DNA of 64,000 bases from Mucilaginibacter gossypiicola (GCF_900110105.1 NZ_FOCL01000016.1:1-64000), one strand, 5' to 3'. Counted from the stretch's first letter, positions 34,366 through 58,925 are shown. Made by a program: numbers and translations. Notes: generated by a model from the letters alone, not told the origin.

Positions 34366-34438
34366 GGTACCATAGCTCAGATGGTAGAGCAAAGGACTGA
34401 AAATCCTTGTGTCACTGGTTCGATCCCAGTTGGTACCA
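34366..34438 (+). tRNA. tRNA-Phe (GAA)
   Basis: 73 nt. The acceptor GGTACCA pairs with TGGTACC, the D arm holds GCTCAGATGGTAGAGC, the anticodon loop ACTGAAAAT gives GAA, and the T arm is CTGGTTCGATCCCAG. The discriminator is A and a full CCA is not encoded. A terminator follows immediately. The 3' part of this gene is the repeated attachment sequence of the island described below. Confidence 0.97.
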
Positions 34439-34440
34439 CA
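34391..34440 (+). repeat. Attachment-site core (attL) within tRNA-Phe
   Basis: 50 bp, from the anticodon arm to 2 bp beyond the tRNA, is identical to 58876-58925 in the same orientation. A long exact tRNA 3'-end duplication is the classic footprint of tyrosine-recombinase integration at a tRNA. Confidence 0.85.
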
Positions 34441-34446
34441 AGTATA

Positions 34447-34481
34447 AAAAAGGTCATTTTCGATAAGAAAATGGCCTTTTT
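34447..34481 (+). terminator. Terminator of tRNA-Phe
   Basis: aaaaggtcattttc/gaaaatggcctttt stem with a 5-nt loop, ending in TTTTT, directly follows the tRNA. Confidence 0.85.
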
Positions 34482-34515
34482 AGCGTTTAAAGGCATATTT
34501 TCTCTTTCGACTTTT

Positions 34516-36195
34516 CTATGTTGCTTGATCAAGGGATTTAGCAGCTTTAGTCTCTAAATCTTCCAAATGGAACTCGTCAGAAATTTGCTTAGAAAAAAGC
34601 GTCTTTTTTAAATTATAGTTTAATCGATTCTTCGGATCCGCCGATTTCACGATGTCTCCAAATAATGGAAGAGAGTCGTTTATGGTTGTCCCATTATATT
34701 TATCCAACTTAGTTAGCCACCTTCTGATGACATTTGCGCTAATGTAATTTTCAATTTCTTTTTCAGTTGTAATCCAACATCTATCTTCGCCAATCTCCGC
34801 TTGAATCCTTTTTTTTGTATCGTTTATTTCTGTCTTCGGCCCAAGTTTATCACTGTCAATCACAACAAATGCATGTCTATTTATCTTCAACAATGGAATA
34901 ATGTCAATCATAGCATCCTTGTTTTCGTCATCTATTGAACCAATAAATGAAACATTCGCGAGATTTTTTCCACCATAAAACATTATTGAAAAATGTAATC
35001 CTTCCTTTAAAGTACCATCAATTAACGAAAGCCATTTTAATAGATAATTGCGGTCACTTGGCCCCTCAACCCAAATTATACCATTTGCTTGGATTAAGTC
35101 GCTCGCCTTATATCCCATATCATCTAATAAGTTATACGCGGCTTTGCTATTTTCTATTTTTGAGATATGGCTTTTATTTTTATCATGTTCAATGTGGTAA
35201 ATAGAAATATTTGATGAGTAATTTAATAGTGTATTGGAATGAGTAGTAATGAAATAAATGTTTTCCGTTTCATTTGATATAAAATCGAAGAACTTTCTTT
35301 GCAATTCGGGATGCAAGTGACTTTCTGGTTCCTCCATGCATATTACCTTATCGTCGTTAGCCAACAGTGCGCCACAGAGTAAAATTATTTGATAAATCCC
35401 TGAACCATAATTCTCTAAGGGCAATCTTTTCCCATGCATCTTAATCAGGATAGATTTTTTGTCATGTGAGATCTCGAGTTGCAAATCGTTAGTATTAAGC
35501 AATGATTTAACCAAACGTTCCAACTTGTCAAAGTTTTCTCTTTTATAATCTTCACCGGGGTTCGGGTGCTGCATTTGGTGCAGTTCCTCGATTATGTTTG
35601 AACCGTTAATTTTGGAATTCCCTGAATTATGAGATTGAGATGGATTGATAATACGAAAATCGGGTATATATATAAGATCTTTAAGTGTTTTGATTCGAGC
35701 AGAAAAATTCTGGTCAATTAAATCAGCTAAATCGTTCAAAATCCTTTCCGTACTAAATGTCCCACTTTCCTTTTTAAAAGACATTAATTGCGTGATGTTA
35801 AGACTTTGTAGCTCTTGTGGTAGAATATCACTGCTAACTCTGTCCTTATTTGAGGGAAGCCAAACTTTGAACGGATCACTTAGTGAATCGGTTAACTTTG
35901 AGGTATCAAATTGAGTATCATTAATTCGATGAGGGAAGTCTAACTCTGCATGGGAAAAGCTGAATCCTATAGATACGACTTCGCCGCTAACATGGGTGTC
36001 GATGTAGCTTAAATTACCCAACTTATATATATTATTTATGTTTTCTGAAATAAGCTTTAAAAATCGGAGAAAGTTTGATTTACCACTATTGTTCTTTCCG
36101 ACTAAAACATTGATTTTTGATAGGTTATCTAAAAAAACGCCGTTCAAATCAAAGCTTCGATAATTTTTTACCCCTATATTTTTCAGCATCACCAT
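34516..36195 (-). CDS. OLD-family ATP-dependent endonuclease (AAA + TOPRIM)
   Basis: About 559 residues from ATG 36195 (MVMLKNIGVKNYRSF); an ATG 6 bp further in is equally possible. The N-terminal ABC/SMC-type ATPase has Walker A VGKNNSGKSN, signature-like LENYGSGIYQ and Walker B VICMEEPESHLHPE with a His switch (FITTHSN). The C-terminal TOPRIM-like half has WVEGPSDRNYLLKW and FVVIDSDK, the acidic metal-binding sites of OLD nucleases. OLD proteins degrade DNA and often act in anti-phage defence (P2 Old, Gabija GajA). No GajB-type helicase is adjacent, so this would be a stand-alone class. First gene inside the island. Confidence 0.85.
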   Translation of the reverse strand: MVMLKNIGVKNYRSFDLNGVFLDNLSKINVLVGKNNSGKSNFLRFLKLISENINNIYKLGNLSYIDTHVSGEVVSIGFSFSHAELDFPHRINDTQFDTSKLTDSLSDPFKVWLPSNKDRVSSDILPQELQSLNITQLMSFKKESGTFSTERILNDLADLIDQNFSARIKTLKDLIYIPDFRIINPSQSHNSGNSKINGSNIIEELHQMQHPNPGEDYKRENFDKLERLVKSLLNTNDLQLEISHDKKSILIKMHGKRLPLENYGSGIYQIILLCGALLANDDKVICMEEPESHLHPELQRKFFDFISNETENIYFITTHSNTLLNYSSNISIYHIEHDKNKSHISKIENSKAAYNLLDDMGYKASDLIQANGIIWVEGPSDRNYLLKWLSLIDGTLKEGLHFSIMFYGGKNLANVSFIGSIDDENKDAMIDIIPLLKINRHAFVVIDSDKLGPKTEINDTKKRIQAEIGEDRCWITTEKEIENYISANVIRRWLTKLDKYNGTTINDSLPLFGDIVKSADPKNRLNYNLKKTLFSKQISDEFHLEDLETKAAKSLDQAT

Positions 36196-36306
36196 TCTAC
36201 GTTTTTTAAGAGCGATAAATATAAAGAGCAATAATTGGCACCAATATATTCATACTTTCTCTTCTGTTTATTCGAACTATTTCTTTTCTTCAATGATATC
36301 TGCCAA

Positions 36307-37632
36307 TTATATTGAATAGCCTAACAAAATTTCTATCGCCTTATAGAAAAATAATCTATTACATAAGTTAACCATTGGGATAACATCTTCATTTCCCGAT
36401 TTGAAGAAAAATAAAGTTTTTTCAAAGTTTTTATGTTGAATTCGTAGCTCTCCTCCTTTTGAGTACATTTTCTTTATATCATTGAACTTATAGGTGAATT
36501 CTTGTCCAGCTGGCTTGATAAACGTTATAAAACCAATGCCTACTTTTATATATTTTTGGAAAGCGTTTTTTTCGTGAGAATAAAGTGAAAATATTATATA
36601 GCCATCTTTTTGCAAGTCACTTTCCAGCCGATCCAATAGATATACAGTCCAATATTTTTCAATAGTTCTATAAAAGTTCAACATTACCCCTTGGTTTTTT
36701 ATATCGGTGGTTTTCTTAAAATCACCATCCCTAGCCAAGAGTATTTTGCCGGTTGTTCTGTTTAGGCAGACGTAAACGTAATTCGTATGTTGATATACAT
36801 AATTCCTTTTAACTTCTGTATAATGGGAATAAAAATCAGTCATGTCATTGAAATTAACCTCTAAATCAATGGGCAAATTTTTCCGTTTATCCACAAACGA
36901 AAACTGGGCAAAGCCGTTTATGCCAATGTACAGATTCGTGTGAGCGAAATCATTATTAGCGGCACTTAACAATAAGGCTCCAAGTGAAGGAACGGCAAAC
37001 CAAATGGTTATCCAAAGAGGATCTTCAAGTCGAGCTATAAAGTAAATAAATAGACCTGGTATCAATCCAAAGAAAAAGAATTTGATATTTTTTTTAGCCT
37101 TTTGACCTGAATTCATGGGCTGTGCATCCTGAATTAGGTCAGAAAAACCAACTATAATTTTACCGATCCTTGCAGGTAATTTAAAAAACTCTAAATTCTT
37201 TGGCAACGGTTCTCCCCAAAAGCTTTGTGTTGGGTTATATTTCGGAGTTTCTTGCTGTTCTCGATCAAAGGGCGAGTAAAATTGTTTAAAAGGGTCATGT
37301 CTAAACCTTTCTTCTTCTTGCTCGTTGGTTTTTTTTCGTTCCTGTTTTTCTGTGTTACGGTATGAGTAGGAGTATGTGGTAGATTGTTCTTGAGTTTCGT
37401 TTATAGTGGTTTTAAAATATTCGCTATAAACAGAATTGAATTTTGAACGACTATCAGCATCAATTAAGATTGTATAAGCGTCTTTTATTTCTTGAAACTT
37501 CTTTGTAAAAAAAGGATCATCGAAATGTTTGTCTGGATGGAATTTTATAGCGTTTGAGCGGTAAGCTTTTTTTATTTGGTCATCGGTCGCATTGGAATCA
37601 ATGCCGAGAATTTCATAATAATCAACGAACAT
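36307..37632 (-). CDS. J-domain (DnaJ-like) membrane-anchored protein
   Basis: 441 residues. The N-terminal J-domain (about 3-70) is YYEILGIDSNATDDQIKKAY with an intact HPD tripeptide (KFHPDKHF), so it can stimulate an Hsp70 ATPase. A charged, Gln-rich linker follows, then two hydrophobic segments (about 185-225: FFFFGLIPGLFIYFIA, ITIWFAVPSLGALLL) and a soluble C-terminal region of unknown fold rich in aromatic strands. No zinc-finger or client-binding domains of DnaJ are present. J-domain proteins of this shape occur in several uncharacterised defence loci. It sits between the OLD nuclease and the SIR2 gene. Confidence 0.8.
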   Translation of the reverse strand: MFVDYYEILGIDSNATDDQIKKAYRSNAIKFHPDKHFDDPFFTKKFQEIKDAYTILIDADSRSKFNSVYSEYFKTTINETQEQSTTYSYSYRNTEKQERKKTNEQEEERFRHDPFKQFYSPFDREQQETPKYNPTQSFWGEPLPKNLEFFKLPARIGKIIVGFSDLIQDAQPMNSGQKAKKNIKFFFFGLIPGLFIYFIARLEDPLWITIWFAVPSLGALLLSAANNDFAHTNLYIGINGFAQFSFVDKRKNLPIDLEVNFNDMTDFYSHYTEVKRNYVYQHTNYVYVCLNRTTGKILLARDGDFKKTTDIKNQGVMLNFYRTIEKYWTVYLLDRLESDLQKDGYIIFSLYSHEKNAFQKYIKVGIGFITFIKPAGQEFTYKFNDIKKMYSKGGELRIQHKNFEKTLFFFKSGNEDVIPMVNLCNRLFFYKAIEILLGYSI

Positions 37633-41029: not shown

Positions 41030-41290
41030 TGTAAGGTTAGGGGAAACAAGTATGCAAGTTAATCAAATCGAAATGACTTTAGTTTATAATAAACAAATAA
41101 AGCAACTTTAAACTGATCGCCAAACCATTTGTCCCTTCGCCAGATTATAAGCTCTCCTGCCCAGCAATTAATATTAGGCGCATGTCACTGATCTAATAGC
41201 GATGACCTGTTTTAATAATTTCCTTCCAATATTACTAGGAAGGTTCAGTTATTGGGTAGCATTTAGGGTGTTTTGCAGCCCGAGAAGGAC

Positions 41291-41533
41291 TCGAACCATA
41301 AACTGTACGGTTCGAATTCCGCCCAGTCAGGGATTGTTAAAAGTGCTTTAATTCGCTTAAAACACGCATTTGATCAATTAAGTGGTTCGAATTCCGCCCA
41401 GTTAGGGGATGTTAAAAGTGCTCTAATGAGCTTAAAACCCGCATTTGTTCTAATAGTTGGTTCGAATTCCGACCAGTAAGGCATCATAAAAGAATCACTA
41501 ATTTTCTCAAAATTCGCACCTGATGTTAGGCCG
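41291..41533. repeat. 75-bp-period tandem repeat, locus A (three units)
   Basis: Units begin at 41309, 41384 and 41459, exactly 75 bp apart, each with ggttcgaattccgcccag or a close variant, then 'ttaaaagtgct.taat..gcttaaaa..cgcattt'. The third unit is diverged. The lead-in at 41291-41297 (tcgaacc) is the exact complement of the first unit's ggttcga. The core resembles a tRNA T-arm. Short ORFs read across it are periodic artefacts. The remainder of 41030-42063 shows no other gene; it is very AT-rich after 41750 and should contain the precursor promoter. Confidence 0.8.
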
Positions 41534-42063: not shown

Positions 42064-42267
42064 ATGAAAAAGAACCTTTATTTAAAAAGTTTAAGTAACT
42101 ACAAGAGCCTTAAAGCGGATACCTACAACACTACATTTGGAGGTTATGCGTCTACTGACCACGACGATTCAAATACCTTTGACAATTCACAAAGTTTCGA
42201 TTCATCTGATGAAAATGACAATTCAGTCTCAAATGACTTTTCATTTAGTTTGGACAATGTTTGGTAG
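42064..42267 (+). CDS. RiPP precursor peptide 1 (double-glycine leader)
   Basis: 67 residues. Leader of about 27 residues with the family pattern KSLSNYKSLKADT and a Gly-Gly site in TTFGG, the expected cut for a C39 peptidase. The roughly 40-residue core is nearly all Asp, Ser, Asn, Phe and Thr (YASTDHDDSNTFDNSQ onward), ends FSLDNVW and has no Lys or Cys. Repeated D-S and S-D pairs would suit Ser/Thr-to-Asp ester macrocycles made by an ATP-grasp ligase. It matches the style of 'grasp-with-spasm' modified peptides. Linkages are inferred, not seen. Confidence 0.8.
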   Translation: MKKNLYLKSLSNYKSLKADTYNTTFGGYASTDHDDSNTFDNSQSFDSSDENDNSVSNDFSFSLDNVW

Positions 42268-42310
42268 AAATAATTGCATTCCATTTTAATTTTTAAATAA
42301 TCCTTATTTT

Positions 42311-42514
42311 ATGAAAACCTTAACTTTAGTAAGCCTAACCAATTTCAAATCATTGACCGCTGAAACTTTTAATTTTACAATTGGCGGTAAAGCATCGCAA
42401 GATCATGATGATTCCAGCACCTTCGATAGTTCGAGCAGCTATGACTCATCCGATAGCAATGATAGTTCAAATAGCACGGACACAGAATCTTTGAGCTACG
42501 ATAACGTATTGTAA
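42311..42514 (+). CDS. RiPP precursor peptide 2 (double-glycine leader)
   Basis: 67 residues, a clear paralogue of precursor 1, 43 bp downstream. Leader MKTLTLVSLTNFKSLTAET with Gly-Gly in FTIGG. Core KASQDHDDSSTFDSSSSYDS and on, ending SLSYDNVL, parallels precursor 1 position by position (DHDDS, TFD, YDSSD/FDSSD, YDNV/LDNV). The only Lys is the first core residue. A good terminator 36 bp after the stop makes 1 and 2 a separate bicistronic unit that can be expressed far above the enzyme genes. Confidence 0.8.
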   Translation: MKTLTLVSLTNFKSLTAETFNFTIGGKASQDHDDSSTFDSSSSYDSSDSNDSSNSTDTESLSYDNVL

Positions 42515-42666: not shown

Positions 42667-44016
42667 CTAATTAACAAGATTGATTGTTATGGAGTTTACC
42701 CAAACAATGCTTTTATCCTGACTTTTTTTCAATTGTCCTAAATAGAAATTTTTATCCGGCTTGACTAATTTTTTGAACAATTCTTTATTGTTAACAACCA
42801 CGCTTATTTGTTTATTCAAGTCTAACATTTTAGGACTTATAAGCAGTGTAAATTTTGTTATACGTGATGTTAAAATGTTAATTGTGTTATTGTGAATTTC
42901 TGCCTTTATAGCTGCACTTTCATCTAACTTATAATAGTCAAACGGAAAATAGGATTGCATTTTTTTATTGTATGCTTTAAGGTTGAATATTTTGTGCCAA
43001 GCAGCTCTGGGTAAGTTTAAATCCCAACTATTAACTTCTATCCAACTAAGACCTTCAAACAAAGAATTACTGGTCTCCCAATAGAGTTGTTTGGGGTATG
43101 GATTTCGGAATGTATTCGTAATGAATTTAATACTGTTGGGATAATCAATATCTAAATGTTTGTCTTCATGCGTGTAACCAAAATATTCCTTGTATTCCAA
43201 GGGCACATGTAAGGAATCCAGAATTTTAACAATATCTCTCGTTTGTTGAATTGGTCTAATATCGTCTTTGTCCGAATGTACAAGGCGAAGTGGGCGGTTG
43301 ACCGCATTAGCGATATAAAGATCATGAGCAAATATGTTGGAAAGCTTAGAATTATAAGCAATCATACCAGCGAAAATTGTAGGTTTATACAAGTCAAATG
43401 CAAAAGCACCATCCGATCCATCAGAATGTCCAAACACAAATACCTTACTGTCATCAAAATTGATTGTTTTCTTTAGTTCATAAATGATATTTTCAAGTGT
43501 ACTAAAAGTATAGTTTTTACTACCTCCAAATGAATTTGCAGCCCAATCAAACCCTTTACCGGGATCAGCAAATGGCTTTACGACGATGAAATTGGAATTG
43601 CAAAGTTTCGAATAAAAAGGATCGTCATCCGGCTGCACTTTTGAATTCTCAGCATCGGAAAATTTGGATTGCCCCACTGCTCCATGAAGTAATAAAATAA
43701 CAGTATGGCGCTGACTGGGATCATAGTTTTCCGGGATATAAAGTTTGAATGGAACATTTCCAAACACGGAATCCTGCATAAAGAATATATGTTCGCCTGT
43801 GAATTTGTCTAATGATGGATAATTATTAAAATTATGGATCTCATTAATAAGCTTTTCAAATGAAGAGTTTGCTGAAGTATTCACGGTTTGGTCGATGGAT
43901 ACTCTCGGCAAATCCTTGATGCTTACGGTTTGTGCCATTCCATTCAATTTGAAGCACGAGAATAACAACGTGATAAAAATATTGTTTAAATATTTGTTTT
44001 GATTTAAAATTTTCAT
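42667..44016 (-). CDS. Secreted alpha/beta hydrolase (esterase/peptidase-like) in the RiPP cluster
   Basis: 449 residues with signal peptide (ending near NGMAQ). An alpha/beta-hydrolase fold spans about 90-320: oxyanion strand VILLLHGAVGQ, nucleophile elbow FGHSDGSDGAF with Ser198, an acid candidate in VHSDKDD and a catalytic His candidate in GYTHEDKH. A C-terminal beta-rich domain of about 120 residues (KAEIHNNTINILTSRITKFTLLI) resembles those on bacterial feruloyl esterase-like proteins. It is encoded opposite to all other cluster genes, between the precursors and the receptor. Hydrolysis of the cluster's own ester-linked peptide is an attractive hypothesis; a general carbohydrate or peptide esterase is the alternative. 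Confidence 0.75.
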   Translation of the reverse strand: MKILNQNKYLNNIFITLLFSCFKLNGMAQTVSIKDLPRVSIDQTVNTSANSSFEKLINEIHNFNNYPSLDKFTGEHIFFMQDSVFGNVPFKLYIPENYDPSQRHTVILLLHGAVGQSKFSDAENSKVQPDDDPFYSKLCNSNFIVVKPFADPGKGFDWAANSFGGSKNYTFSTLENIIYELKKTINFDDSKVFVFGHSDGSDGAFAFDLYKPTIFAGMIAYNSKLSNIFAHDLYIANAVNRPLRLVHSDKDDIRPIQQTRDIVKILDSLHVPLEYKEYFGYTHEDKHLDIDYPNSIKFITNTFRNPYPKQLYWETSNSLFEGLSWIEVNSWDLNLPRAAWHKIFNLKAYNKKMQSYFPFDYYKLDESAAIKAEIHNNTINILTSRITKFTLLISPKMLDLNKQISVVVNNKELFKKLVKPDKNFYLGQLKKSQDKSIVWVNSITINLVN

Positions 44017-47472: not shown

Positions 47473-47708
47473 TTTCAAATGATGAAGATACTCCGTTTGA
47501 TGAGGAGCTCTTGCTTAAAATACCATTAGGTTATAGATCTATGGTTAAAAAGGAAACGGAATTTATTGGAGAACTATATCGACGTGTGAAGTTTAGTGGT
47601 TCTAAGCTTTTTCAGTCGAATCAGTACTCGAATTTCCCGTCACATAAACCAATTTCGAATCTACTACTGGATTTAAGAATTCAAGAAACCATTGAAACAG
47701 ATGAGTAA
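47442..47708 (+). CDS. Unknown 88-residue RiPP-cluster protein
   Basis: 88 residues, overlapping the end of the ATP-grasp gene by 31 bp and the next gene's ATG by 8 bp, so almost certainly translated with them. Acidic start (SNDEDTPFDEELLLKIP) and a basic, aromatic middle (YRRVKFSGSKLFQSNQYSN). No signal peptide, no membrane helix, no cysteines. I do not recognise a family. Position between ligase and SPASM partner suggests a role in leader recognition or complex assembly, which is inference from gene order only. Confidence 0.7.
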   Translation: MANKKIAASIVSNDEDTPFDEELLLKIPLGYRSMVKKETEFIGELYRRVKFSGSKLFQSNQYSNFPSHKPISNLLLDLRIQETIETDE

Positions 47709-48651
47709 GCATTTAATTCTCCACGCCCATTGTATCCCGGTTCGAGGTAAAGAACAAGGGGCTATATATGATTTACAAAAAGGGTCACTTATGTTCATTC
47801 CAAATTCGATGATTGATTTGATAGAATATATGAGGGACGAAAGCTATCATAAAACTAGAAAAGTGGTCAACTCTTTAGCGTTTTTCAAGGAGCATGTAGA
47901 TTTTATTTTATCGAATGGCCTAGGATTTTTTACCGATCACCCTCAGCGATTTATTGCTCTTCCCGATCAATATCATTCGCCGGAGGAAATATCGACAGCG
48001 GTTATAGAATACGGAGCTGACAAATTTGATTTAAAGTCCGTAATTAATGAATTGAATATGTTGCGTTGTAAACACATTGAATTCCGTTATATTGACTGTA
48101 ACCCTGATTTCTCAGAACTAAGAACATTGATTGGATACACAAACAATTCTACCATACGGTCGATTGAGCTTCATTTGACTCAAAACGAAAAGATAAGTAA
48201 AGTCAATTTACTCGGTCTGGCAGGCGAGTTTAAGAAGCTTAGAACAATTAACGTTCATAATTCAGCAAGTGCGGATTATGATTTTAAGAATAATATTTTC
48301 TTCCTTGAGAGCGATTGGAAAACTGTCGAGCAAAAACATTTTCCCCATGATGTGTACATTGTCAATATGAAGTTTTTTATGGAAAGTCAGAAGTTCAATA
48401 CTTTTTATAACCAAAAAGTCTGTATTTCCAGAGATGGGTATATTAAAAACTCCTTATTGAACGTAAGGCATTTTGGTCAATATAGTACAAATAATACACT
48501 TACAGATGTAGTTAGAACTGATGAGTTTAAGAAATTATGGTTTATTAGTCCGGATATGATAGAGGAAGTCAAAGAATCTGAAACGAGGTATGCGACCTTG
48601 TTTTCACAAGATGTAGAATTAATAGATGGAAAATATCATTTAATTCATTAA
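47701..48651 (+). CDS. gwsS: SPASM-domain maturase partner, grasp-with-spasm type, cysteine-poor
   Basis: 316 residues from ATG 47701. The middle is an alpha/beta repeat region (IEYGADKFDLKSVINELNML, HIEFRYIDCNPDFSELRTLI) like a radical-SAM barrel lacking its CxxxCxxC. The C-terminal part follows the SPASM layout of this family: FYNQKVCISRDGYIKN, HFGQYS, EFKKLWFISPDMIEEV, ETRYATLF. Cysteines expected after KN, in the 'C-x-DC' and in 'RY-x-C' are Ser, Val/Ser and Thr/other here; only the KVC cysteine remains. The Fe-S clusters are therefore probably not bound. It overlaps the exporter gene by one base (TAATG). Confidence 0.8.
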   Translation: MSKHLILHAHCIPVRGKEQGAIYDLQKGSLMFIPNSMIDLIEYMRDESYHKTRKVVNSLAFFKEHVDFILSNGLGFFTDHPQRFIALPDQYHSPEEISTAVIEYGADKFDLKSVINELNMLRCKHIEFRYIDCNPDFSELRTLIGYTNNSTIRSIELHLTQNEKISKVNLLGLAGEFKKLRTINVHNSASADYDFKNNIFFLESDWKTVEQKHFPHDVYIVNMKFFMESQKFNTFYNQKVCISRDGYIKNSLLNVRHFGQYSTNNTLTDVVRTDEFKKLWFISPDMIEEVKESETRYATLFSQDVELIDGKYHLIH

Positions 48652-50879
48652 TGAAGAGTCTGCAAAGCAAATTTGTCTTTTATCACCAAGCTGATCATAT
48701 GGATTGCGCTGCTACTTGCTTAAGAATGGTAGCTAGATACTACGGCGCAGACTATGATGTCTCACATCTGAGAGATTTGGTAAATACAACCAGGCAGGGG
48801 GCTAGCCTTGCTGGCATCCAAGATGGTGCAGGAGCGATCAGGTTAAAAACACTTGTATCAAAGGGGACAGTGGAAAATTTGGTTAAAGAGCACTTGTTAC
48901 CTGCGGTATTATATTGGAATCCAGATCACTATGTGGTACTTTACAAGATTTCCGAGACAAAAAAAGGCGAATACATATTCTTTATTGCCGATCCCGCACT
49001 TTCAAAATATAAAGTATCTGAAAAAAAATTTAGAGAAAAGTGGGTTAGTGACAACGCCGACGGTGAAGGATTGATCGTGTTTTTCGAGCCGGGCGAGGAC
49101 TTCATGGAAACATACGATGAATATGCGTTAAATTACGTGAAGCCATCGAGGCACTTTTACTGGGAATATGTTAAAGCTCACAAAGCCTCGTTCTCATTGA
49201 TATTGTTAATAACGATAATCTCTTCATTATTTAATCTGGTATTTCCTGTACTTACACAAAAAATTGTAGATACGGGCATCCCGAATAAAGACCTGTCACT
49301 TATCTCACTTTTCTTGTTGTTTCAGATTGGGGCATTTATTGGCAGTTCAGTGTTCGACATGGTTAAGGGTAGGTTATTATATGTTGTTACGACTAGAATT
49401 AATATAAATATATTAACAGAATTTCTTTTAAAGTTAACTAGGCTATCCGTTCGTTATTTCGACAATAAGGTCGCGAGCGATATTACGCAAAGAATTGCTG
49501 ATCATTCGCGCATTGAAAAATTCCTGACAACGAATTTGATTGGAACCATATTTTCGGTTTTCAACTTTGCTTTTTTTTCTTTCTTGATCTTAAAATATGA
49601 TTATAAGATTTTTTTAATCTTCCTGAGCATCACCGTATTTTCCATTTTATGGATGTTCATGTTTGTTAAGAGGCGTAAATCAATAGAATATAAGCGTTTT
49701 GAAGCATACAAGGATTCCTCAAATTCTTCATATGAAGTGATTTATGGAATGAAGGAACTAAAGTTGAATAATGCACAAATAGCCAAAATAGAAGATTGGG
49801 GTGTTGATCAAAAAAAAATCTACGCGATTAACAAAGAGTCGATGCTTTTGGAGCAGAGGCAAAATATAGGAAATGTCTTGATAAATCAAACCAGAAGTGC
49901 ATTAGTAACATTTTACTGCGCTTTTTTGGTCATCCACGGGAAGATATCAATTGGTGAAATGTTAAGTATTTCATTTATGTTAGGTCAATTATCATCTCCT
50001 TTTACACAATTTTTTGAATTTATTAAAGGATGGAACGAGGCATATTTCAGTTTTGATCGGATTAATGAAGTAAAGGAGAGACAAGACGAGGATGATGAAT
50101 TCCTCCCTCATGGTCATACCCTAAAAACAGTTTCGGCATTTGAAAGAATATTGATTTCTAATTTGAATTTTAAATACGATAAAAGTTCTCCGGTTAATGT
50201 TTTGGACGGCATCAATATTGAAATAAAAAAGGGGCAAAAGGTGGCTTTTGTTGGTAATAGCGGAAGCGGGAAGACTACATTGGTTAAATTGTTGTTGAAA
50301 TTTTACCTACCGTCTAAAGGAATTATTAGCGTAGACAGTAATGACTTAGCAGAGTTAGAAGCAAACAGTTGGCGGCAAAAATGCGGTGTTGTGATGCAGG
50401 ATGGATATATATTTTCAGCAACAATATTACAGAATATTTGCTTGGATTCGAAAAAAGTGGATCTGGAACGGGTTAAGCAAGTTTGCCATCTGGCGAACAT
50501 CAAGGATTATATAGAATCCTTGCCAAAAAAATATAACACCAAGATCGGCGGTTCCGGTGTTGGTTTAAGTGGAGGCCAAATTCAACGCATTTTGATAGCG
50601 CGGGCATTATATAAAAATCCTGAAGTGTTGTTTTTTGATGAAGCTACAAGTTCCTTGGATACGGAAAACGAGCGTATAATAATGGAAAACATTAATGAGT
50701 TCAGCACGGGTAAAACGCTCGTTGTTGTCGCTCATAGATTAAGTACTGTAAAAAATGCAGATATGATTTATGTTTTTAATAACGGTAAAATAGTGGAGGC
50801 TGGTAATCATGTTGAGTTATTGGTGAATAAAGGCTTTTATTATAAATTGGTTTCAAATCAATTGGAGTTATCAAACTAA
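48651..50879 (+). CDS. C39-peptidase-containing ABC exporter
   Basis: 742 residues. N-terminal C39 peptidase (about 8-150): catalytic Cys19 in MDCAATCLRMVARYYG, His in PDHYVVLY, Asp in IADPA; it should cut precursor leaders after Gly-Gly. A six-helix transmembrane domain fills about 175-460. The ATPase has Walker A GNSGSGKTT (about 534), signature GLSGGQIQR (about 640), Walker B VLFFDEATSSLD and switch His in VVAHRLS. It processes and exports the modified peptides through the inner membrane. No HlyD-type adaptor is in the window, so passage across the outer membrane needs other components. Confidence 0.95.
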   Translation: MKSLQSKFVFYHQADHMDCAATCLRMVARYYGADYDVSHLRDLVNTTRQGASLAGIQDGAGAIRLKTLVSKGTVENLVKEHLLPAVLYWNPDHYVVLYKISETKKGEYIFFIADPALSKYKVSEKKFREKWVSDNADGEGLIVFFEPGEDFMETYDEYALNYVKPSRHFYWEYVKAHKASFSLILLITIISSLFNLVFPVLTQKIVDTGIPNKDLSLISLFLLFQIGAFIGSSVFDMVKGRLLYVVTTRININILTEFLLKLTRLSVRYFDNKVASDITQRIADHSRIEKFLTTNLIGTIFSVFNFAFFSFLILKYDYKIFLIFLSITVFSILWMFMFVKRRKSIEYKRFEAYKDSSNSSYEVIYGMKELKLNNAQIAKIEDWGVDQKKIYAINKESMLLEQRQNIGNVLINQTRSALVTFYCAFLVIHGKISIGEMLSISFMLGQLSSPFTQFFEFIKGWNEAYFSFDRINEVKERQDEDDEFLPHGHTLKTVSAFERILISNLNFKYDKSSPVNVLDGINIEIKKGQKVAFVGNSGSGKTTLVKLLLKFYLPSKGIISVDSNDLAELEANSWRQKCGVVMQDGYIFSATILQNICLDSKKVDLERVKQVCHLANIKDYIESLPKKYNTKIGGSGVGLSGGQIQRILIARALYKNPEVLFFDEATSSLDTENERIIMENINEFSTGKTLVVVAHRLSTVKNADMIYVFNNGKIVEAGNHVELLVNKGFYYKLVSNQLELSN

Positions 50880-51035: not shown

Positions 51036-51257
51036 ATGAAAAAACAAACAATTTGTTTAGAAAATCTCTTGGATTTTAGAAGTGGAGAGCAACAAATCAC
51101 AATTTTGTCCACGACATTTGGTGGTGTCTATTGTCACGACGGTGATGTATCCTATTCACAAGACACCTCAACGTCAGGTGATGTATCACAATTGGATGAC
51201 AATTCGCAATCAACGGATGATTCGGAAACTTTGGATAGCAGTGATAACCATGATTGA
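51036..51257 (+). CDS. RiPP precursor peptide 3 (double-glycine leader)
   Basis: 73 residues. Leader with the CLENLLDF block and Gly-Gly in STTFGG. The core of about 43 residues (VYCHDGDVSYSQDTSTSGDV onward) repeats short Asp-Ser/Thr units and ends DSSDNHD, the same ending as precursor 5. There is one Cys in the core and no Lys. It follows the exporter by 156 bp and is probably the first of three tandem precursors. Confidence 0.8.
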   Translation: MKKQTICLENLLDFRSGEQQITILSTTFGGVYCHDGDVSYSQDTSTSGDVSQLDDNSQSTDDSETLDSSDNHD

Positions 51258-51360
51258 CTTTATTTATTAAAAAAAAAATAATCAAGTTTTGTCGTATTAT
51301 TTTATATTATCAAAGTTTATTTTTATATTTAAATGAGCTTATAATCTAAATCTAATTTAT

Positions 51361-51585
51361 ATGACAAAACCTACAATTACCTTAGAAAATCTTCAGATTT
51401 TCAACACAAAAAATCAAATTGCAACCAATTTGTTTGCAACTTACGGTGGTGTTCTTCAATCACACGATAATGATCAATCGGATCAAAACGACTACTCTTA
51501 TTCGAATGATATTTCGGAATACTCGGATTCGAGCCAGCATAACGACGATTGTACTGCCGGTGACACCAGCGCATCAGCAGATTAA
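51361..51585 (+). CDS. RiPP precursor peptide 4 (double-glycine leader)
   Basis: 74 residues. Leader ITLENLQIF and Gly-Gly in FATYGG, then a core of about 44 residues rich in Asp, Ser, Asn, Tyr and Gln (SHDNDQSDQNDYSYSNDIS). It has one Cys (DDCTAG), no Lys, and ends SASAD. The leader block resembles precursors 3 and 5, whereas the core is its own, consistent with a shared enzyme set acting on diversified substrates. Confidence 0.8.
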   Translation: MTKPTITLENLQIFNTKNQIATNLFATYGGVLQSHDNDQSDQNDYSYSNDISEYSDSSQHNDDCTAGDTSASAD

Positions 51586-51603
51586 TTTTATCAAAAGAAA
51601 ATC

Positions 51604-51813
51604 ATGAAAAAAATCAATTTAGAAAGTTTATCAAACTTTAAAGAACAATCCGGCAGCATCTTGTATGCAGTGCTAGGCGGGCAACAGTCAGTATCATATG
51701 ATACATCAGGTATTGGCGATACGTCAACGAATAATGATACGTCAACGGCCGCGGATAACTCCACTGACCACGATGGATCTGATTCTTACGATACATCAGA
51801 TAATCACGATTAA
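51604..51813 (+). CDS. RiPP precursor peptide 5 (double-glycine leader)
   Basis: 69 residues, 18 bp after precursor 4. Leader NLESLSNFKEQSG with Gly-Gly in YAVLGG. The core has the most regular repeat of the five, a D-T-S spacing about every 7-8 residues (YDTSGIGDTSTNNDTSTAAD), ending YDTSDNHD. It contains no Cys or Lys. The regular acid-hydroxyl spacing is what a repeated-macrocycle graspetide would need. A terminator lies 57 bp downstream. Confidence 0.8.
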   Translation: MKKINLESLSNFKEQSGSILYAVLGGQQSVSYDTSGIGDTSTNNDTSTAADNSTDHDGSDSYDTSDNHD

Positions 51814-52520: not shown

Positions 52521-54074
52521 TTATTCGACTTTAATCAAAATAGGAATGGAGTGTTCACTTTCATTCTTAAGTCTGTCTATCGCGGTAACAACATAGCGGT
52601 ATGTTTTTCCTTTGATGATCCCTCTGTCTGTATAAGTAGTATCGGTGTTGTATTGAATATGGATAATTTTCTTTGGATCGTCGGTGGTTATTAGGTTGTC
52701 GCTTTCATCAAAACGATAAATTACATAGCCATATGCAGGTTCATTATCTGTGGCAGGCAAAGGTTGCTGCCAGGTAAGGGTTACTGATCCAGCAGAAGAA
52801 GTAGCTGCAACCCGGTGGGCTGGATTTGGCGCTACAGAATCGAGCCATAACATAACTGGAGGGAGCGCCGGGTAACGGTAATAGTTGTTTTTTAAAGAGT
52901 CGGTAAAGCCCAGCGGGTTTTTAATAAGCGAGTTTGAACTGAAATAAACACTGCCCTGTACGCGTGGGTTTTTGCGCAGGTATTTAACCTGATTAGGTAA
53001 TTGAGATGGCAGCCTGAACCCTGCAAGCTTGTTTTCAATAATGCGGTAGGGGCCCTGGCCAATGTATAAATGCCGTCCGTATGTATTATTGCCCCACCAA
53101 TCAACCAAAACATTAAAGGCAACCGAGCGGTCATTAAGCAAACGATACAATTGCGGATTGATATAGTCAACCCAGCCTTCTTTTACCCATTTTTTGGAAT
53201 CGGCGTATAGTTCGTAATAGGAGTCGCCACCACGTGTACCAGAGCCTTCTGGATTTTGATATTTATTGGCCCAAATGCCAGAGGGGCTTACGCCGAATTT
53301 TAACCGCGGATTATGCTGATGAATGCTATCGCTTAGCATTTTAACCAATCGGTTAACGTTATCCCTCCGCCATTCCCTGATATCGGTAAATGCCGACCCA
53401 TATTTGGCAAATGTTTGTGAATCGTTGATTTGCTGGCCGGCTACATGGTAGGGATAAAAGTAATCGTCGAGATGGATACCATCAACATCGTAATTATCCA
53501 CCACATCAAGTACAACCCGCACTATATATTCCCTAACTTCGGGAATCCCCGGATCAAACAACTTTTGGCCGCCGTAGGTAAAAAACCATTCGGGCTTAAT
53601 GTTGGTAATGTGGTGCGGACTTAAAGCAGCATAATTAGCATCCTTAGTTGCCCTGTAAGGGTTAAACCAGGCGTGCAGTTCCATGCCACGTTTGTGCGCC
53701 TGTTCTATAGCAAATTGGAGAGGATCATATAAGGGATCGGGTGCTTTGCCCTGTTTGCCGGTAAGCCATTTTGACCATGGCTCGCGGCTTTTAGCGTAAA
53801 ATGCATCGGCGGCAGGCCTTACCTGTAACATAATGGCGTTAATGCCAGCTGCCTGGTGCTGGTCAAAAATGTCAACGAGTTCTTTCTGCTGCTGGGCAGT
53901 GCTTTCTGTAGCGGTTTGAGGCCAGTCTATATTTTCAACAGTTGCTATCCAAACCCCTCTGAATTCTCTTTTAGGGTACGCGTTAACTTTTGTAGTATCC
54001 GTTACCTGCGCGGTTGCTCTGAAGCCTAAAAGGGAAGCCAAAAGTAATCCAGCGATGCTTATTGTTAGTTTCAT
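52521..54074 (-). CDS. DigH/YddW-like glycosyl hydrolase (GHL10) with C-terminal Fn3-like domain
   Basis: About 517 residues from ATG 54074 (MKLTISIAGLLLASLLGF signal). The GHL10 TIM barrel (about 35-370) carries the family's conserved stretches: FRGVWIATVENIDWP, GINAIMLQVRPAADAFY, HKRGMELHAWFNPYRAT, LFDPGIPEVREYIV, DGIHLDDYFYP, KFGVSPSGIWANKY, YINPQLY. Escherichia coli DigH, which cleaves peptidoglycan glycan strands stripped of stem peptides, shares this pattern. Residues about 405-517 look like a fibronectin type III domain (SVTLTWQQPLPATDNEPAYG). Last gene of a four-gene operon that also encodes an amidase able to create denuded glycan. Confidence 0.85.
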   Translation of the reverse strand: MKLTISIAGLLLASLLGFRATAQVTDTTKVNAYPKREFRGVWIATVENIDWPQTATESTAQQQKELVDIFDQHQAAGINAIMLQVRPAADAFYAKSREPWSKWLTGKQGKAPDPLYDPLQFAIEQAHKRGMELHAWFNPYRATKDANYAALSPHHITNIKPEWFFTYGGQKLFDPGIPEVREYIVRVVLDVVDNYDVDGIHLDDYFYPYHVAGQQINDSQTFAKYGSAFTDIREWRRDNVNRLVKMLSDSIHQHNPRLKFGVSPSGIWANKYQNPEGSGTRGGDSYYELYADSKKWVKEGWVDYINPQLYRLLNDRSVAFNVLVDWWGNNTYGRHLYIGQGPYRIIENKLAGFRLPSQLPNQVKYLRKNPRVQGSVYFSSNSLIKNPLGFTDSLKNNYYRYPALPPVMLWLDSVAPNPAHRVAATSSAGSVTLTWQQPLPATDNEPAYGYVIYRFDESDNLITTDDPKKIIHIQYNTDTTYTDRGIIKGKTYRYVVTAIDRLKNESEHSIPILIKVE

Positions 54075-54087
54075 TATCAATCAAATA

Positions 54088-56538
54088 TTAATTTACGCCA
54101 GCCCGGCCTCGTTCCGTTTCCAAACCACTTTTGTTTATCCGCTTTTTGCCTTCCAATCCAAACCGGTAGGCCAATGTTAGGTTTATCTGCCGGGTATCAT
54201 TAATAATATTGCTTGTTATCCATGCATTATTTACCCGGATTTCACGCCGGATCTTCCACGAATGAAAAATATCTGAGCCGGCAAGGGTAATAGTAGCCTT
54301 GTTGTTAAATATCTTTTTTTGCAGGCTTGTGTTTACCCGAAACATCGGCAGATAATATCCTTGTCCAAATGTTGTGCGGGTACGATAAAATCCACTTATT
54401 TCTGCGCTCAAGCCTTTGTTTATTTTAAACTGATTATTACCAGATGCCTCGAAGGTAAACACCCTGTTATAAAGAAAATCATTATTGATTGCTTCGCCCC
54501 GAAATAATTGCTCTGAAACCTGGCCGAAAAGGTTTGCCGTCCACCATTTAAAAATTGGTACAGCTACTGTGGAATAAAGCGCGAGATTATAATTGCTGCA
54601 GATATTCAATGAGGTATTAACCAGCGATTGGCCGTTCACATAGTAAAACTGGATGATCGTATTGCGGCCTTTTTTAAAAGATGTTCCTACGGTTAAAATG
54701 CCCGAGTGAGTAAATGATAAATCGAAGTTAATTGTTTTTTCGGGCAGTAACGAAGCATTTCCCTGGAAAGAAGTATACCTGTCGAAATAAAACGCAAACG
54801 GATTAAGAGATGAATAATCGGGCCGGTTGATCTGGTAGTCGAAAGAGAAATTAAAAGTGTTTACCGAAGCGGTATCTAATTTATAGGCAACATAAAGCTT
54901 TGGAAATAAATTGTTGTAGTTTAAATGTAAAGCAGGATAGGGTATGCCGGCATAATTATACTGCCTGGCTTGCGAACTACTGTTCTCGAACCGCAAACCT
55001 AATTCAAAGCTGAATTTCTTCAGATTTTTATTGAGGCTGATATAAGCGGCGTTGATATGCTCTGTGTAGGTATTACTGCTTGTTAATGAATCGTTTGGTA
55101 TGCCGGGCCGGTTGAAATAAATACCGTTGCTGCCCCTTTTAGAGTAAATGCTTTGTAATCCTGCCGATAATTTGATATCAGCAAAGGTTTTTGTTTCATA
55201 ATCTGATTTTAAGCTGTACACATTTGCCTCAAAAGGATTTTGTGTGATGAGGTTATAATTGTTTGCAAGCTCCGTGCTGTTGGGCAGGTATGTATCGCTG
55301 TTCAGCAGTTGCAGGGCGTTGTCGGTGTAGTGCAGATAATCGGCATCTATCCTGATGTTTTCTCCTGCTTTTTTAAACTTATGCTGATAATAAAGATTGA
55401 GCGCTACATCATTGGTAGGCCTGTTAAGGTCACTTTGTGTTTTGATAATTGAATCGGGCAAGGCATGATTAAATTGCAGCAAATAATTGCCCTGTTCTTT
55501 ATAGGGACTTACGGAACCATCAATTACCAACCCAATGCTGGTGTTTGTATCGAGCGCTGCATCAAAACCCAGCTTATACCGTGTAGTTTTCCTGTTATTG
55601 GTTTCCAGGTTATTTTGTTTGATTGTGTAGTTGTCCGCAGGATTAGCAAAACTAAAATCTCTTTCCCTGTCTACCTTGTAATAATTATTATTAGATGTGT
55701 AAGCAGCATTTCCAAATAAATTTAGCTTCCCCGTTTTATAATTAAGATTTAAGCTATAGTTTGCTTTGTCGTAATGTCCTCGCCCATTAGTGGCTGTCAA
55801 ACCGCCGTTAAATCCCCCAGTATGATTTTTTTTGGTAATGATATTGATCAAACCTGCGTTGCCCTCCACATGATATTTTGCTGGCGGTACCGGCATTAGT
55901 TCTAATTTTTCGATAGTGCCCGAAGGCAGGGACTTTAAATAGTTTACCAATTGTGTTCCGTCTAAAAAGGTTTGCCGGCCGTCAATGTATATCGTTACGC
56001 CTTGTTTTCCGCGCAATGATATGGCATCGTCTGTAACACTAACCCCGGGGGCGTTATTTAAAACCTCAACGGCGCTTACACCGTTGTTTGAAAGCAGTTG
56101 ACTAACATTTACAATGGTCCGGTCTATTTTCTGTTCGGTATAAGGTTTTTGTCCGGCCCTGATCACAACTTCCTTTAAATCATTTTCGGCCAACTCCAAT
56201 TTAATTTCGGACAGATTTGCGGATGGTTTTACCGCATTGATAATCAGCTGCCCGATGGTAACTTCCTTATAGCCCAAATGTTTTATTTGCAGGGAATAAG
56301 TTCCGCTTTGGAGGTTTTTAAATTCAAAGGCTCCCGATTGGTCGCTATTAATAGCATTTTTATACAAGCTGTCTTTCTGGCTTTTAATGATAATCGTTGC
56401 GCCTTCAATCGCCAGGCCATCCTTTACGGTGACAACTTTTCCGCTGATGATGCCCCTTGTTATTTCCACTTTCCCGGTATTTTGAGCCATTGAGTTTAGG
56501 GAAAGCAGTAGCAATAAGGCTGATAAAATCACCTTCAT
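54088..56538 (-). CDS. Outer-membrane TonB-dependent-receptor family barrel
   Basis: 816 residues with signal peptide (MKVILSALLLLLSLNSMAQ). Carboxypeptidase-regulatory-like domain (about 30-115, GIISGKVVTVKDGLAIEGATI), plug (about 120-235: VVIRAGQKPYTEQKIDRTIVN, VLNNAPGVSVTDDAISLRGK, IYIDGRQTF, GLINIITKKN) and a beta-barrel of the 'outer membrane beta-barrel family' class (PDYSSLNPFAFYFDRYT). Genes lie 13 bp downstream and 70 bp upstream. Uptake or sensing of a cell-wall fragment would suit its companions, but no substrate motif is visible. Confidence 0.88.
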   Translation of the reverse strand: MKVILSALLLLLSLNSMAQNTGKVEITRGIISGKVVTVKDGLAIEGATIIIKSQKDSLYKNAINSDQSGAFEFKNLQSGTYSLQIKHLGYKEVTIGQLIINAVKPSANLSEIKLELAENDLKEVVIRAGQKPYTEQKIDRTIVNVSQLLSNNGVSAVEVLNNAPGVSVTDDAISLRGKQGVTIYIDGRQTFLDGTQLVNYLKSLPSGTIEKLELMPVPPAKYHVEGNAGLINIITKKNHTGGFNGGLTATNGRGHYDKANYSLNLNYKTGKLNLFGNAAYTSNNNYYKVDRERDFSFANPADNYTIKQNNLETNNRKTTRYKLGFDAALDTNTSIGLVIDGSVSPYKEQGNYLLQFNHALPDSIIKTQSDLNRPTNDVALNLYYQHKFKKAGENIRIDADYLHYTDNALQLLNSDTYLPNSTELANNYNLITQNPFEANVYSLKSDYETKTFADIKLSAGLQSIYSKRGSNGIYFNRPGIPNDSLTSSNTYTEHINAAYISLNKNLKKFSFELGLRFENSSSQARQYNYAGIPYPALHLNYNNLFPKLYVAYKLDTASVNTFNFSFDYQINRPDYSSLNPFAFYFDRYTSFQGNASLLPEKTINFDLSFTHSGILTVGTSFKKGRNTIIQFYYVNGQSLVNTSLNICSNYNLALYSTVAVPIFKWWTANLFGQVSEQLFRGEAINNDFLYNRVFTFEASGNNQFKINKGLSAEISGFYRTRTTFGQGYYLPMFRVNTSLQKKIFNNKATITLAGSDIFHSWKIRREIRVNNAWITSNIINDTRQINLTLAYRFGLEGKKRINKSGLETERGRAGVN

Positions 56539-56608
56539 GGTATTGAATTAAATGTGTGGATTATTGCAGAACCCCTATCAATCCTAAAATGTGGATTAGG
56601 CTTAAATA

Positions 56609-58054
56609 TTATTCGCCTGTGCCGTAAGCTACTACCGCATTGATGATCTTTTCGGCTATTTTATGCTGGTTATCTGTGTTTGTGATATAGTTAAGATCGG
56701 AAGGATCGGTCATGTAGCCCAATTCTAACAATACTGCCGGCGCTTTATTGTGCCGCAAAATATACAGCGTATTATCGGGCGAGGTTTCACTGATAACCAT
56801 TTTTCGCCGGGTGTTTATTCCGCTTAACTGTTGTAAGCTGGTTTTTAAATGGCGGGCCAGTTTTTTATTCAATGGATACAATTCGTTTTTGTCAATGATC
56901 ACCTCCATTCCATTGGTATGTCTGGCCCAATAGCCGGGCGCGTTTAGGTGTATAGAGATGAAAGCGTCACCTTTATACACAACCCTGCCGCGCAGATCCA
57001 GCTCGCTATCATCAGGCCGTGTTAAAATTGTGCGGATGCCTTGTTTTTCGGCTATGGCTTTGATTTGATTGACAATCTGGAGGTTCAGGTCTTTTTCAGT
57101 ATAACCTCCGGTGCCCACCGTACCGTACTGGCTGCCGCCGTGGCCCGCATCGAGCACCAATACAAAATCCTTTTTCAGGGCTTTGCCGTACACCTTTTCA
57201 ACCGAAGACCAATAGCCGTACATTGCCAATACCGGTACAATAGCCAGGTACCATAACTTTTTTACCGCCGGCGAATGGGCGCTAAATAGCATCACAATCC
57301 TGCTTTTTAAGCTATATGCGCTGAATTGATTAACGAGGCCTGTAGATGAAAAAGAAGATAATTTGAGTATTAACGATGCATATTGTTTAGTGTCGAAAAC
57401 GCCTTTCATTAAATGGTCAACCTCAAACTCGTGAACCTCGTTCAGAGCATTTGCAATAAGATAAACGAATGGGTTAAACCAAAAAAACGCTTTCACAACC
57501 TCCATATACAGGTTGTCGGCAGAGTGAAACAGGCGGGCATGTGTTTCTTCATGCGCTAATACCTGGGCTACTTCTGATGATTGCGTATTGGCCGAACTGA
57601 TAAAAATGTAGTTAAAGAATGATGCGTTCTTTTTATACCGATCCATCACCAAGTAATTTTCCCCGGATCTTACACCATGCTCTTTTGCCTGGTTTACTAT
57701 TTTCAACACGCTGTACGCCATTTTGATAAGTAGAGCTATGCAAATTGCACCATATATGATGCCGGCAATTAATGACCAGTTAGCGGTGTTGGCTTGATGT
57801 GAAATAGGGGGTAAATATTCCTTTTCGGGAGAGATGTTTTGAGAAACGATCACATCCTGGGTTGTTGGGTGGGCTAGAAGCGGCTCCCGTACCTTAATGT
57901 GTATCGCCGGGATTATCAAGCTTATTGTTACAATGAACAACAAGTAAAACCTGGTCATCGAGAAAAAGGTTAGGCACTTTAATACCAGCGGGTATAACGT
58001 ATATCCTAAGCCCATGCATGCACTTGCGCCGATCAGATAATTAAATACGCTCAT
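56609..58054 (-). CDS. M56 (BlaR1-like) membrane protease fused to N-acetylmuramoyl-L-alanine amidase
   Basis: 481 residues. Residues 1-285 are a BlaR1/MecR1-type M56 domain with four membrane helices and the zinc motif HEETH (His168, Glu169, His172) plus NEVHEFEVDH further on. Residues about 297-481 are an Amidase_3 domain: LVLDAGHGG (His305), a GGYTEKDLN glutamate, ISIHLNA and LLELGYMTD, i.e. both zinc His and both Glu are kept. In ordinary BlaR1 the C-terminal part is a penicillin-binding sensor; here it is an enzyme that removes stem peptides from peptidoglycan. It starts 2 bp after the BlaI repressor gene, so M56 cleavage of BlaI would be the usual regulatory logic. Confidence 0.88.
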   Translation of the reverse strand: MSVFNYLIGASACMGLGYTLYPLVLKCLTFFSMTRFYLLFIVTISLIIPAIHIKVREPLLAHPTTQDVIVSQNISPEKEYLPPISHQANTANWSLIAGIIYGAICIALLIKMAYSVLKIVNQAKEHGVRSGENYLVMDRYKKNASFFNYIFISSANTQSSEVAQVLAHEETHARLFHSADNLYMEVVKAFFWFNPFVYLIANALNEVHEFEVDHLMKGVFDTKQYASLILKLSSFSSTGLVNQFSAYSLKSRIVMLFSAHSPAVKKLWYLAIVPVLAMYGYWSSVEKVYGKALKKDFVLVLDAGHGGSQYGTVGTGGYTEKDLNLQIVNQIKAIAEKQGIRTILTRPDDSELDLRGRVVYKGDAFISIHLNAPGYWARHTNGMEVIIDKNELYPLNKKLARHLKTSLQQLSGINTRRKMVISETSPDNTLYILRHNKAPAVLLELGYMTDPSDLNYITNTDNQHKIAEKIINAVVAYGTGE

Positions 58055-58056
58055 AG

Positions 58057-58416
58057 CTATTGTTTATCAATCATTTTCTGGATTTCTTCAATGTCTTTTT
58101 CCGACAGGGTTTCTTCTTTTACCATGAATGACAGCAGTGACTGTGCCGATCCGTCAAAATAATTGGTGATCAGCTTGGTAAAAGAGTGTTTTCCGTATTC
58201 GGCTTTAGTAATGAGCGGATAATATTCATGCGTTTTTCCGTAGGCTTTATGGCCAATATAGTTTTTAGTTTCCAGGAGCCGCACCACAGATGATATCGTG
58301 TTATACGGCGGCTTAGGATCATCTGGCAGATGTTCAATGATATCTTTCACAAAAGCGGATTTCAAATCCCATAAAACCTGCATAATTCGTTCTTCGGTTC
58401 TGGTTAATTCCTCCAT
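58057..58416 (-). CDS. BlaI/MecI/CopY-family repressor
   Basis: 119 residues from ATG 58416 (MEELTRTEERIMQVLWDL); an upstream TTG would add two residues. Winged-helix DNA-binding domain about 1-70 (FVKDIIEHLPDDPKPPYNTISSVVRLLETKNYIGHKAYGK), then a helical dimerisation tail (SLLSFMVKEETLSEKDIEEIQKMIDKQ). BlaI proteins repress their own operon until cleaved by an M56 protease. The partner M56 protein is the next gene and tandem operator-like repeats lie just upstream, so autoregulation of the four-gene operon is likely. Confidence 0.93.
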   Translation of the reverse strand: MEELTRTEERIMQVLWDLKSAFVKDIIEHLPDDPKPPYNTISSVVRLLETKNYIGHKAYGKTHEYYPLITKAEYGKHSFTKLITNYFDGSAQSLLSFMVKEETLSEKDIEEIQKMIDKQ

Positions 58417-58423
58417 AACCAAA

Positions 58424-58463
58424 TATATAACTTATTTTTCAGTTATATAACTTATTTTTCAGT
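58424..58463 (-). promoter_or_regulatory. Probable BlaI operator: two exact 20-bp tandem copies
   Basis: The 20-bp sequence TATATAACTTATTTTTCAGT occurs twice in direct succession (58424-58443, 58444-58463), 8 bp before the blaI-like start codon. At the junction it forms the exact palindrome agttatataact (58441-58452). Position and dyad symmetry fit a repressor site overlapping the promoter. Confidence 0.65.
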
Positions 58464-58545
58464 TTTGTGAATATAGCCTGGTAAATGGCGAGAAAAAAGG
58501 AAGCGTGCCTAATTTTCTCAATTGCATAACCAAGCCCGAGCAAAA

Positions 58546-58660
58546 CTCGGACAACAAACTGTGCGGTTCGAAATGTGCACAGTTAGGGATCGTTAAAAGT
58601 GCTCTAATTCGCTTAAAATGCGCATTTGTTCTAAAAAGTGGTTCGAATTCCGCCCAGCCT
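58546..58660. repeat. 75-bp-period repeat, locus C
   Basis: Units begin at 58565 and 58640, 75 bp apart, the second partial, with the same lead-in (ctcggacaacaaactgtgc). At the first unit aactgtgc and gcacagtt form an 8-bp stem around ggttcgaaat. It marks the far edge of the BlaI operon block, about 215 bp before the tRNA-Phe remnant. The 58661-58875 stretch shows no gene. Confidence 0.8.
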
Positions 58661-58875
58661 CAGGAGCAAATATTATTTTCACCGTTTACAACGATTCCGT
58701 CCGCTAACCGGGCTCGAACCAATAGACAATTTGTTGGAATATCAAATTTAAGAATCAAATTTCATTATATTTGATTATCGGTTTGGAGAGACCGTGCTTT
58801 GTTTTACAAATGTTTTACAGTGAAAGAAAGCAAACTTCTAACGAATTGAAATTCAGCAATATACAAACACTGCCG

Positions 58876-58925
58876 AAAGGACTGAAAATCCTTGTGTCAC
58901 TGGTTCGATCCCAGTTGGTACCACA
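58876..58925 (+). repeat. tRNA-Phe 3'-end copy (attR)
   Basis: Exact 50-bp copy of 34391-34440, lacking the 5' part of the tRNA and so not a functional gene. It marks the right end of the island. A terminator hairpin follows it, as it does after the intact tRNA. Confidence 0.9.

Follow-up and report, generated by a model that had tools for sequence, protein, structure and literature searches.

The window analysed here, a stretch of 64,000 nucleotides from Mucilaginibacter gossypiicola, carries a 24.5-kb island between a tRNA-Phe gene and a 50-bp copy of its 3' part, and we consider it very likely (a probability of roughly 85 %) that this island is a decayed integrative element, a relic resembling a cis-mobilizable element (CIME), within a tandemly accreted tRNA-Phe hotspot. 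The explanation is based on comparison, namely on an empty site, on element ends and on a cognate integrase in sister islands, with 149 Mucilaginibacter genomes as comparison set (among them G026, M. oryzae DSM 19975; G061, M. lacusdianchii; G073, strain SMC90; G075, strain E4BP6; and G098, strain X5P1) and 400 genomes of the order as a wider set. A first, sequence-only reading of the window had reported an exact 50-bp tRNA-Phe duplication, and indeed 34391-34440 and 58876-58925 are identical at 50 of 50 positions. In the 8.2-Mb genome, neither a second full tRNA-Phe nor a further copy of the 50-mer was found, other tRNAs matching only at 74-82 %; because the 50-mer does not recur genome-wide, a chance origin of the duplication is excluded. 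The contents had furthermore been described as accessory and partly AT-rich, which agrees with a GC content of about 33-36 % at 41-52 kb, followed by near-chromosomal values of 40-43 % at 52-58 kb and preceded by a left flank of mostly 38-46 %.

The duplication had been taken for the footprint of site-specific integration, and an empty site in relatives had been proposed as a check. Such a site, joining 34440 to 58926, was found in G137 when the 149 genomes were searched with a query in which tRNA-Phe is fused to what follows the island on the right (from 58926 on): the match, which covers the tRNA and 48 bp of right flank, reaches 97 % across the join. There, tRNA-Phe is directly followed by the terminator which stands after 58925 in the window and then by different sequence containing no island gene, and the upstream flank is the same as window 31999-34440 (85.8 %). 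In strain SMC90, tRNA-Phe leads directly into the terminator that the window possesses after a third copy of the tRNA (61269 onward). These tRNA-Phe junctions of G137 and SMC90 define 34441-58925 as an insertion, and the integration footprint gains further support from sister islands that use the same ends together with an integrase.

Of the earlier picture, the insertion of 34441-58925 therefore stands, but not the single clean island, as the locus is an accretion of several layers. The third copy, which the first reading did not include, is 72 % identical to the tRNA-Phe 3' part over 50 bases and 89 % over the last 36, and suggests an earlier accretion at the same locus. Because SMC90 has the terminator of the third copy directly after its tRNA-Phe, foreign DNA probably extends to 61268, so that 58926-61268 would contain older insertions at the same tRNA-Phe site; window 60165-61307 is common to G090, G030, and G070. 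Several other traces were observed around the locus. Just inside attR, at 58700-58740, lies a minus-strand, T-arm-like tRNA remnant unlike tRNA-Phe, and SMC90 has at 6.394 Mb (L058:9196-9245) an attR-like fragment with homology to window 58700-59104, 5.2 Mb away from its empty tRNA-Phe. Moreover, window 27854-62200, comprising tRNA-Phe and the island, is inverted relative to rplM/rpsI when compared with G013, G026, G030, G067, G070, G090, and G137, while SMC90 displays a smaller, different inversion that has one breakpoint in common with it.

Regions between tRNA-Phe and a 3' copy in relatives, here called sister islands, range from about 14 kb (G087), 20 kb (G026), 21 kb (G059), 30 kb (G025), and 37 kb (G048) to about 52 kb (G067), 74 kb (G098), 94 kb (G061), and 98 kb (G075), and those of G061, G075, and G098 contain a common syntenic block, TraJ included. 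The left inner end of the window island (34441-34547) reappears in G067 and G098, among others, and in M. oryzae, where identity over 34340-34547 is 97.6 %; the island's right inner end (58564-58925) is found in M. oryzae (82 %) and SMC90. The interior resembles no single sister element, M. oryzae sharing only the C39 exporter, and at the DNA level the only matches to 38.6-58.56 kb in seven close sisters are dispersed repeats and paralogous stretches that are short or 60-80 % identical; the left 4 kb were compared with relatives at the protein level only. With the ends shared with sister elements and the interior not, the interior need not have originated in one complete conjugative element.

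Seven sister islands have the same gene in first position inside the tRNA end, that of a divergent, IntDOT-like tyrosine recombinase, which is intact in G061, G067, G075, and G098 (425-445 aa) and partial in G026, G025, and G028. All five proteins scanned matched PF13102 (Phage_int_SAM_5, the SAM-like core-binding domain) above its cut-off (E 1e-8 to 3e-11), three of the five matched PF17293 (the N-terminal arm-binding domain) under its cut-off, and the catalytic motifs RH, NH, and Y in the C-terminal part are invariant in alignment A1, where the first Arg was judged by eye to be non-conserved. PF00589 matched neither the intact sister integrases nor anything in most tRNA-Phe islands. The search for phage integrase profiles that had been recommended would have misled, being blind to intact enzymes, and absence of a PF00589 match is not absence of an integrase. 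A non-tyrosine recombinase family, considered on account of these blanks, was dropped once the shared first gene was recognised as encoding a divergent tyrosine recombinase. Of 80 named relatives, 60 follow a tRNA that has the same orientation, at a near-constant gap of ~185 bp (typically 182-220 bp), the adjoining tRNA being Met (32), Phe (16), Asn (5), Lys (5), or Arg (2); in the integrase tree, tRNA choice follows the branching yet switches several times. As a separate observation, two elements stand in tandem away from tRNA-Phe in G067: immediately after a tRNA-Gln-type integrase comes an ectopic copy of the 50-bp tRNA-Phe core (C1:3735966, L131:4966-5015), and after this core an intact integrase of the tRNA-Phe type.

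Within 120 bp before the integrase gene, 46 of 80 loci show a perfect 7-4-7 bp direct repeat, compared to 0.25 in shuffled sequence. The same repeat recurs near the far island end, as GGGCACA in G061, G075, and G025 and as TTTTACA in M. oryzae, and the arm repeats of G098 and G067 are similar but imperfect. By analogy with the IntDOT/lambda model, these repeats are putative integrase arm-binding sites. The window contains TTTTACA-AATG-TTTTACA once, at the position of the M. oryzae right end. That tRNA-Phe sequence was simply duplicated or gene-converted without any integration, for which the extra full or partial tRNA-Phe copies of several relatives might speak, is extremely improbable, given that the copy ends exactly at the tRNA 3' terminus, that G137 presents an empty site, and that sisters share the element ends and arm repeats and have cognate integrases at the same site.

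No tyrosine recombinase had been noticed between the island's ends, and our searches confirm this: Pfam scans of the island ORFs gave no match to PF00589 or PF13102, tblastn with the intact sister-island integrases found nothing in 34.0-62.3 kb, and all 17 proteins with a PF00589 match in this genome are located on other contigs. A serine recombinase or transposase as the island's mover was likewise rejected, since the Pfam scans detected neither inside it. Instead, the island retains 107 bp of the element's left end up to a junction at 34547/34548, beyond which another gene, encoding an AAA ATPase, begins and both the integrase and the left arm repeat are missing. The last codons of this gene (nt 34516-34547) consist of element-end sequence, so that its C-terminus is probably truncated and runs into the left end. 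Both this junction and the DSR2::TraJ chimera described below rest on one contig of a draft assembly. An integrative mobilizable element or satellite that lacks an integrase by design and borrows that of a helper would also contain no integrase and keep an intact attR, with compatible integrases at hand in sisters. We regard this as very unlikely, because sister islands with the same ends have an integrase or its remnant exactly where the window island breaks, because a hijacking design would keep both arm sites, of which one is missing here, and because no relaxase was found in Pfam/NCBIfam scans of the island. The features of the locus are compiled in Table 1.

Table 1. Features of the tRNA-Phe locus and its island, in window coordinates
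Feature	Position	Strand	Basis or remark
tRNA-Phe(gaa), intact, single copy	34366..34439	+	ARAGORN; attL core = 3' part 34391-34440
Retained left end (terminator + leader)	34441..34547	+	M. oryzae homology stops at 34547
AAA_21/AAA_15 ATPase, OLD/GajA-AriA-like defence type, 571 aa	34516..36231	-	
DnaJ-domain membrane protein	36307..37632	-	
DSR2::TraJ chimera, 1079 aa	37790..41029	-	DSR2 and TraJ alignments
Dispersed repeat of 66-125 nt, three copies	41277..41524	+	more at 52194-52318, 58533-58657
Two GG-leader, Ser/Asp-rich precursor-like peptides	42064..42514 (42064-42267, 42311-42514)	+	sequence
Esterase/alpha-beta hydrolase	42667..44016	-	
OMP_b-brl_3 outer-membrane protein	44190..46454	+	
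ATP-grasp peptide ligase, GwsG-like	46498..47472	+	TIGR04192, 220 bits, cut-off 230
GwsS-like SPASM peptide maturase	47692..48651	+	TIGR04193, 133 bits, cut-off 175
C39-peptidase ABC exporter	48651..50879	+	M. oryzae island homologue 39 % identical
Three GG-leader-type, Ser/Asp-rich precursor-like peptides	51036..51813 (51036, 51361, 51604)	+	
GHL10 glycosyl hydrolase-like protein	52521..54080	-	
OMP_b-brl_3 outer-membrane protein	54088..56538	-	
BlaR1-like M56/Amidase_3 fusion (56609-58054) and BlaI-type repressor (58057-58422)	56609..58422	-	
Right-end arm repeat TTTTACA-AATG-TTTTACA	58802..58819	+	same as both ends of M. oryzae island
attR core, exact 50-bp duplicate of tRNA-Phe 3' part	58876..58925	+	
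Terminator right of attR	58926..58973	+	in G137 (empty site) directly after tRNA-Phe
Third, degenerate tRNA-Phe 3' copy (older attR)	61219..61268	+	

According to the reading of the island as a decayed element, an element with an IntDOT-type tyrosine recombinase would have entered the 3' half of tRNA-Phe, which its own end restored, and the 50-bp copy displaced in the process would mark attR. A later deletion at the left end would then have joined 34547 to the 3' part of the AAA gene, thereby removing the integrase and the left arm repeat, and other joins may have reshuffled the interior, producing the DSR2::TraJ fusion and the cargo between dispersed repeats. With integrase and left arm gone, the island would not be expected to excise alone or with an integrase supplied in trans, and is probably stuck. 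The only exit we envisage is in cis: a tRNA-Phe element of the TTTTACA type could land at attL and bring in a left end to act together with the attR that the island has kept intact.

Of the two possibilities raised by the sequence-only reading, loss of mobility is thus supported by the 34547/34548 break, while mobilisation in trans finds no support here. The genome does encode two intact 442-aa members of the integrase family, one beside tRNA-Met (C15:753898, arm repeat ATTGATA) and one beside tRNA-Arg (C9:144315, arm repeat GGTACA), and the former is 53 % identical to the tRNA-Phe enzyme of G067 and branches among the tRNA-Phe integrases, so that some cross-recognition is conceivable. That the island is still mobile by means of either resident enzyme is nevertheless unlikely, because both reside at other tRNAs with repeats different from TTTTACA and because the loss of the left arm leaves attL without a predicted binding site for either of them. 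On C15, the intact tRNA-Met next to the resident integrase is also immediately preceded by a decayed tRNA-Met 5' half (L126:5540-5610).

One gene of the island encodes the DSR2::TraJ chimera. Its residues 4-746 align without gaps to the 1228-aa DSR2 of G041, covering the SIR2 NADase and the middle part, and residues from about 743 to 1079 align to TraJ of Bacteroidota conjugative elements. The match to NF041819 (DSR2; 925 bits, residues 12-750) stops at position 755 of the 1215-position profile, and the chimera hence lacks the full-length DSR2 architecture of SIR2, middle, and C-terminal domain, its C-terminal part being replaced by the TraJ membrane region. Among the matches listed from the 149 genomes of the genus and the 400 of the order, no other spans the DSR2/TraJ junction, and the in-frame fusion is unique among the genomes searched. 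In a simple reading, it would have arisen by an in-frame deletion join. The TraJ half speaks against the relic reading insofar as it is nearest to orphan TraJ proteins elsewhere (81 %) and not to those of tRNA-Phe islands (59-66 %), and its descent from tRNA-Phe conjugative elements was dropped, its closest relatives being orphan TraJ at other loci. Such orphan genes (383 aa), with no further tra gene within about 9 kb, are found in G063 and G139 (L144:10281-11432, L146:10178-11329), where they adjoin a large serine recombinase and, in L144, also an XerC-like recombinase and a TnpB-like gene. DSR2 detects the phage tail-tube protein through its middle and C-terminal domains (PMC11087589). It is quite improbable that the chimera is an expressed and selected fusion in which the SIR2 NADase is tethered to the membrane via a subunit of the conjugation machine; if true, it would react to envelope events such as conjugative entry or phage injection, and not to the tail-tube protein alone.

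Copies of the dispersed repeat bracket the peptide cluster and the segment from BlaI to GHL10 and recur across sister genomes, and the repeat may have been used for cargo exchange. The BlaI, M56-amidase, OMP, and GHL10 genes have near-chromosomal GC, and the GHL10 gene has a paralogue of about 69 % DNA identity elsewhere in the genome and in seven sister genomes searched. As judged from its genes, the peptide cluster appears to work like a graspetide-type system and resembles the branch 5 graspetide loci of Bacteroidota (PMC8939145) in its ATP-grasp ligase, SPASM-type maturase, C39 exporter, five GG-leader precursors, and gene order. It differs from the grasp-with-spasm families (TIGR04192, TIGR04193) in its enzyme scores, which stay under the curated cut-offs, and in its Ser/Asp-rich precursors, to which none of the precursor families scanned corresponds; the two at 42064-42514 gave no family match in profile scans. 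A literature search for the phrase 'grasp-with-spasm' returned no papers.

The stranding of a tRNA-targeting element can here be followed within one genus, as the empty site, intact relatives, and stranded copy can be aligned with each other. Furthermore, the comparison yields testable rules for this integrase family of the Sphingobacteriaceae, namely a spacing of ~185 bp between tRNA and gene, 7-4-7 repeats ahead of the gene and, where checkable, the same repeat at the far island end. With these rules, the ends of an element and the specificity of its helper become predictable even for elements whose integrase has been lost.

A literature search returned no papers on Mucilaginibacter ICEs, and the closest known counterpart is the CIME as defined in PMC5704250 (citing Pavlovic 2004 and Bellanger 2011). 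Like a CIME, the island is flanked by attL and attR, as evidenced by the exact 50-bp cores and the empty site of G137, has lost its integration genes (Pfam scans, tblastn) and its transfer genes, of which only the TraJ fragment within the chimera is left, and takes part in tandem accretion at a tRNA 3' end; the integrase, relaxase, and type IV secretion genes that an ICE would carry itself were not found in the Pfam/NCBIfam scans and tblastn searches. Tandems of CIME and ICE were seen to transfer in other systems (PMC5704250). Unlike a CIME, the island has lost its left arm-type repeat, which would leave attL crippled and only cis-mobilisation through attR to be expected. Similar target choice is known from the NBU1 integrase, a member of the IntCTnDOT subgroup directed to the 3' end of tRNA-Leu (PMC8138268), and from the 10K island of Riemerella anatipestifer, located at tRNA-Arg with a 53-bp duplication (PMC6764341). 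The sister enzymes resemble the NBU1 and CTnDOT integrases in being Bacteroidota tyrosine recombinases, and the IntCTnDOT subgroup is known for weak conservation of its first catalytic arginine (PMC8138268). In contrast to these systems and to the 10K island, the window island is left without an enzyme, and the enzymes of its sisters escape PF00589 and sit at tRNA-Phe, Met, Asn, Lys, or Arg, often with 7-4-7 repeats before the gene.
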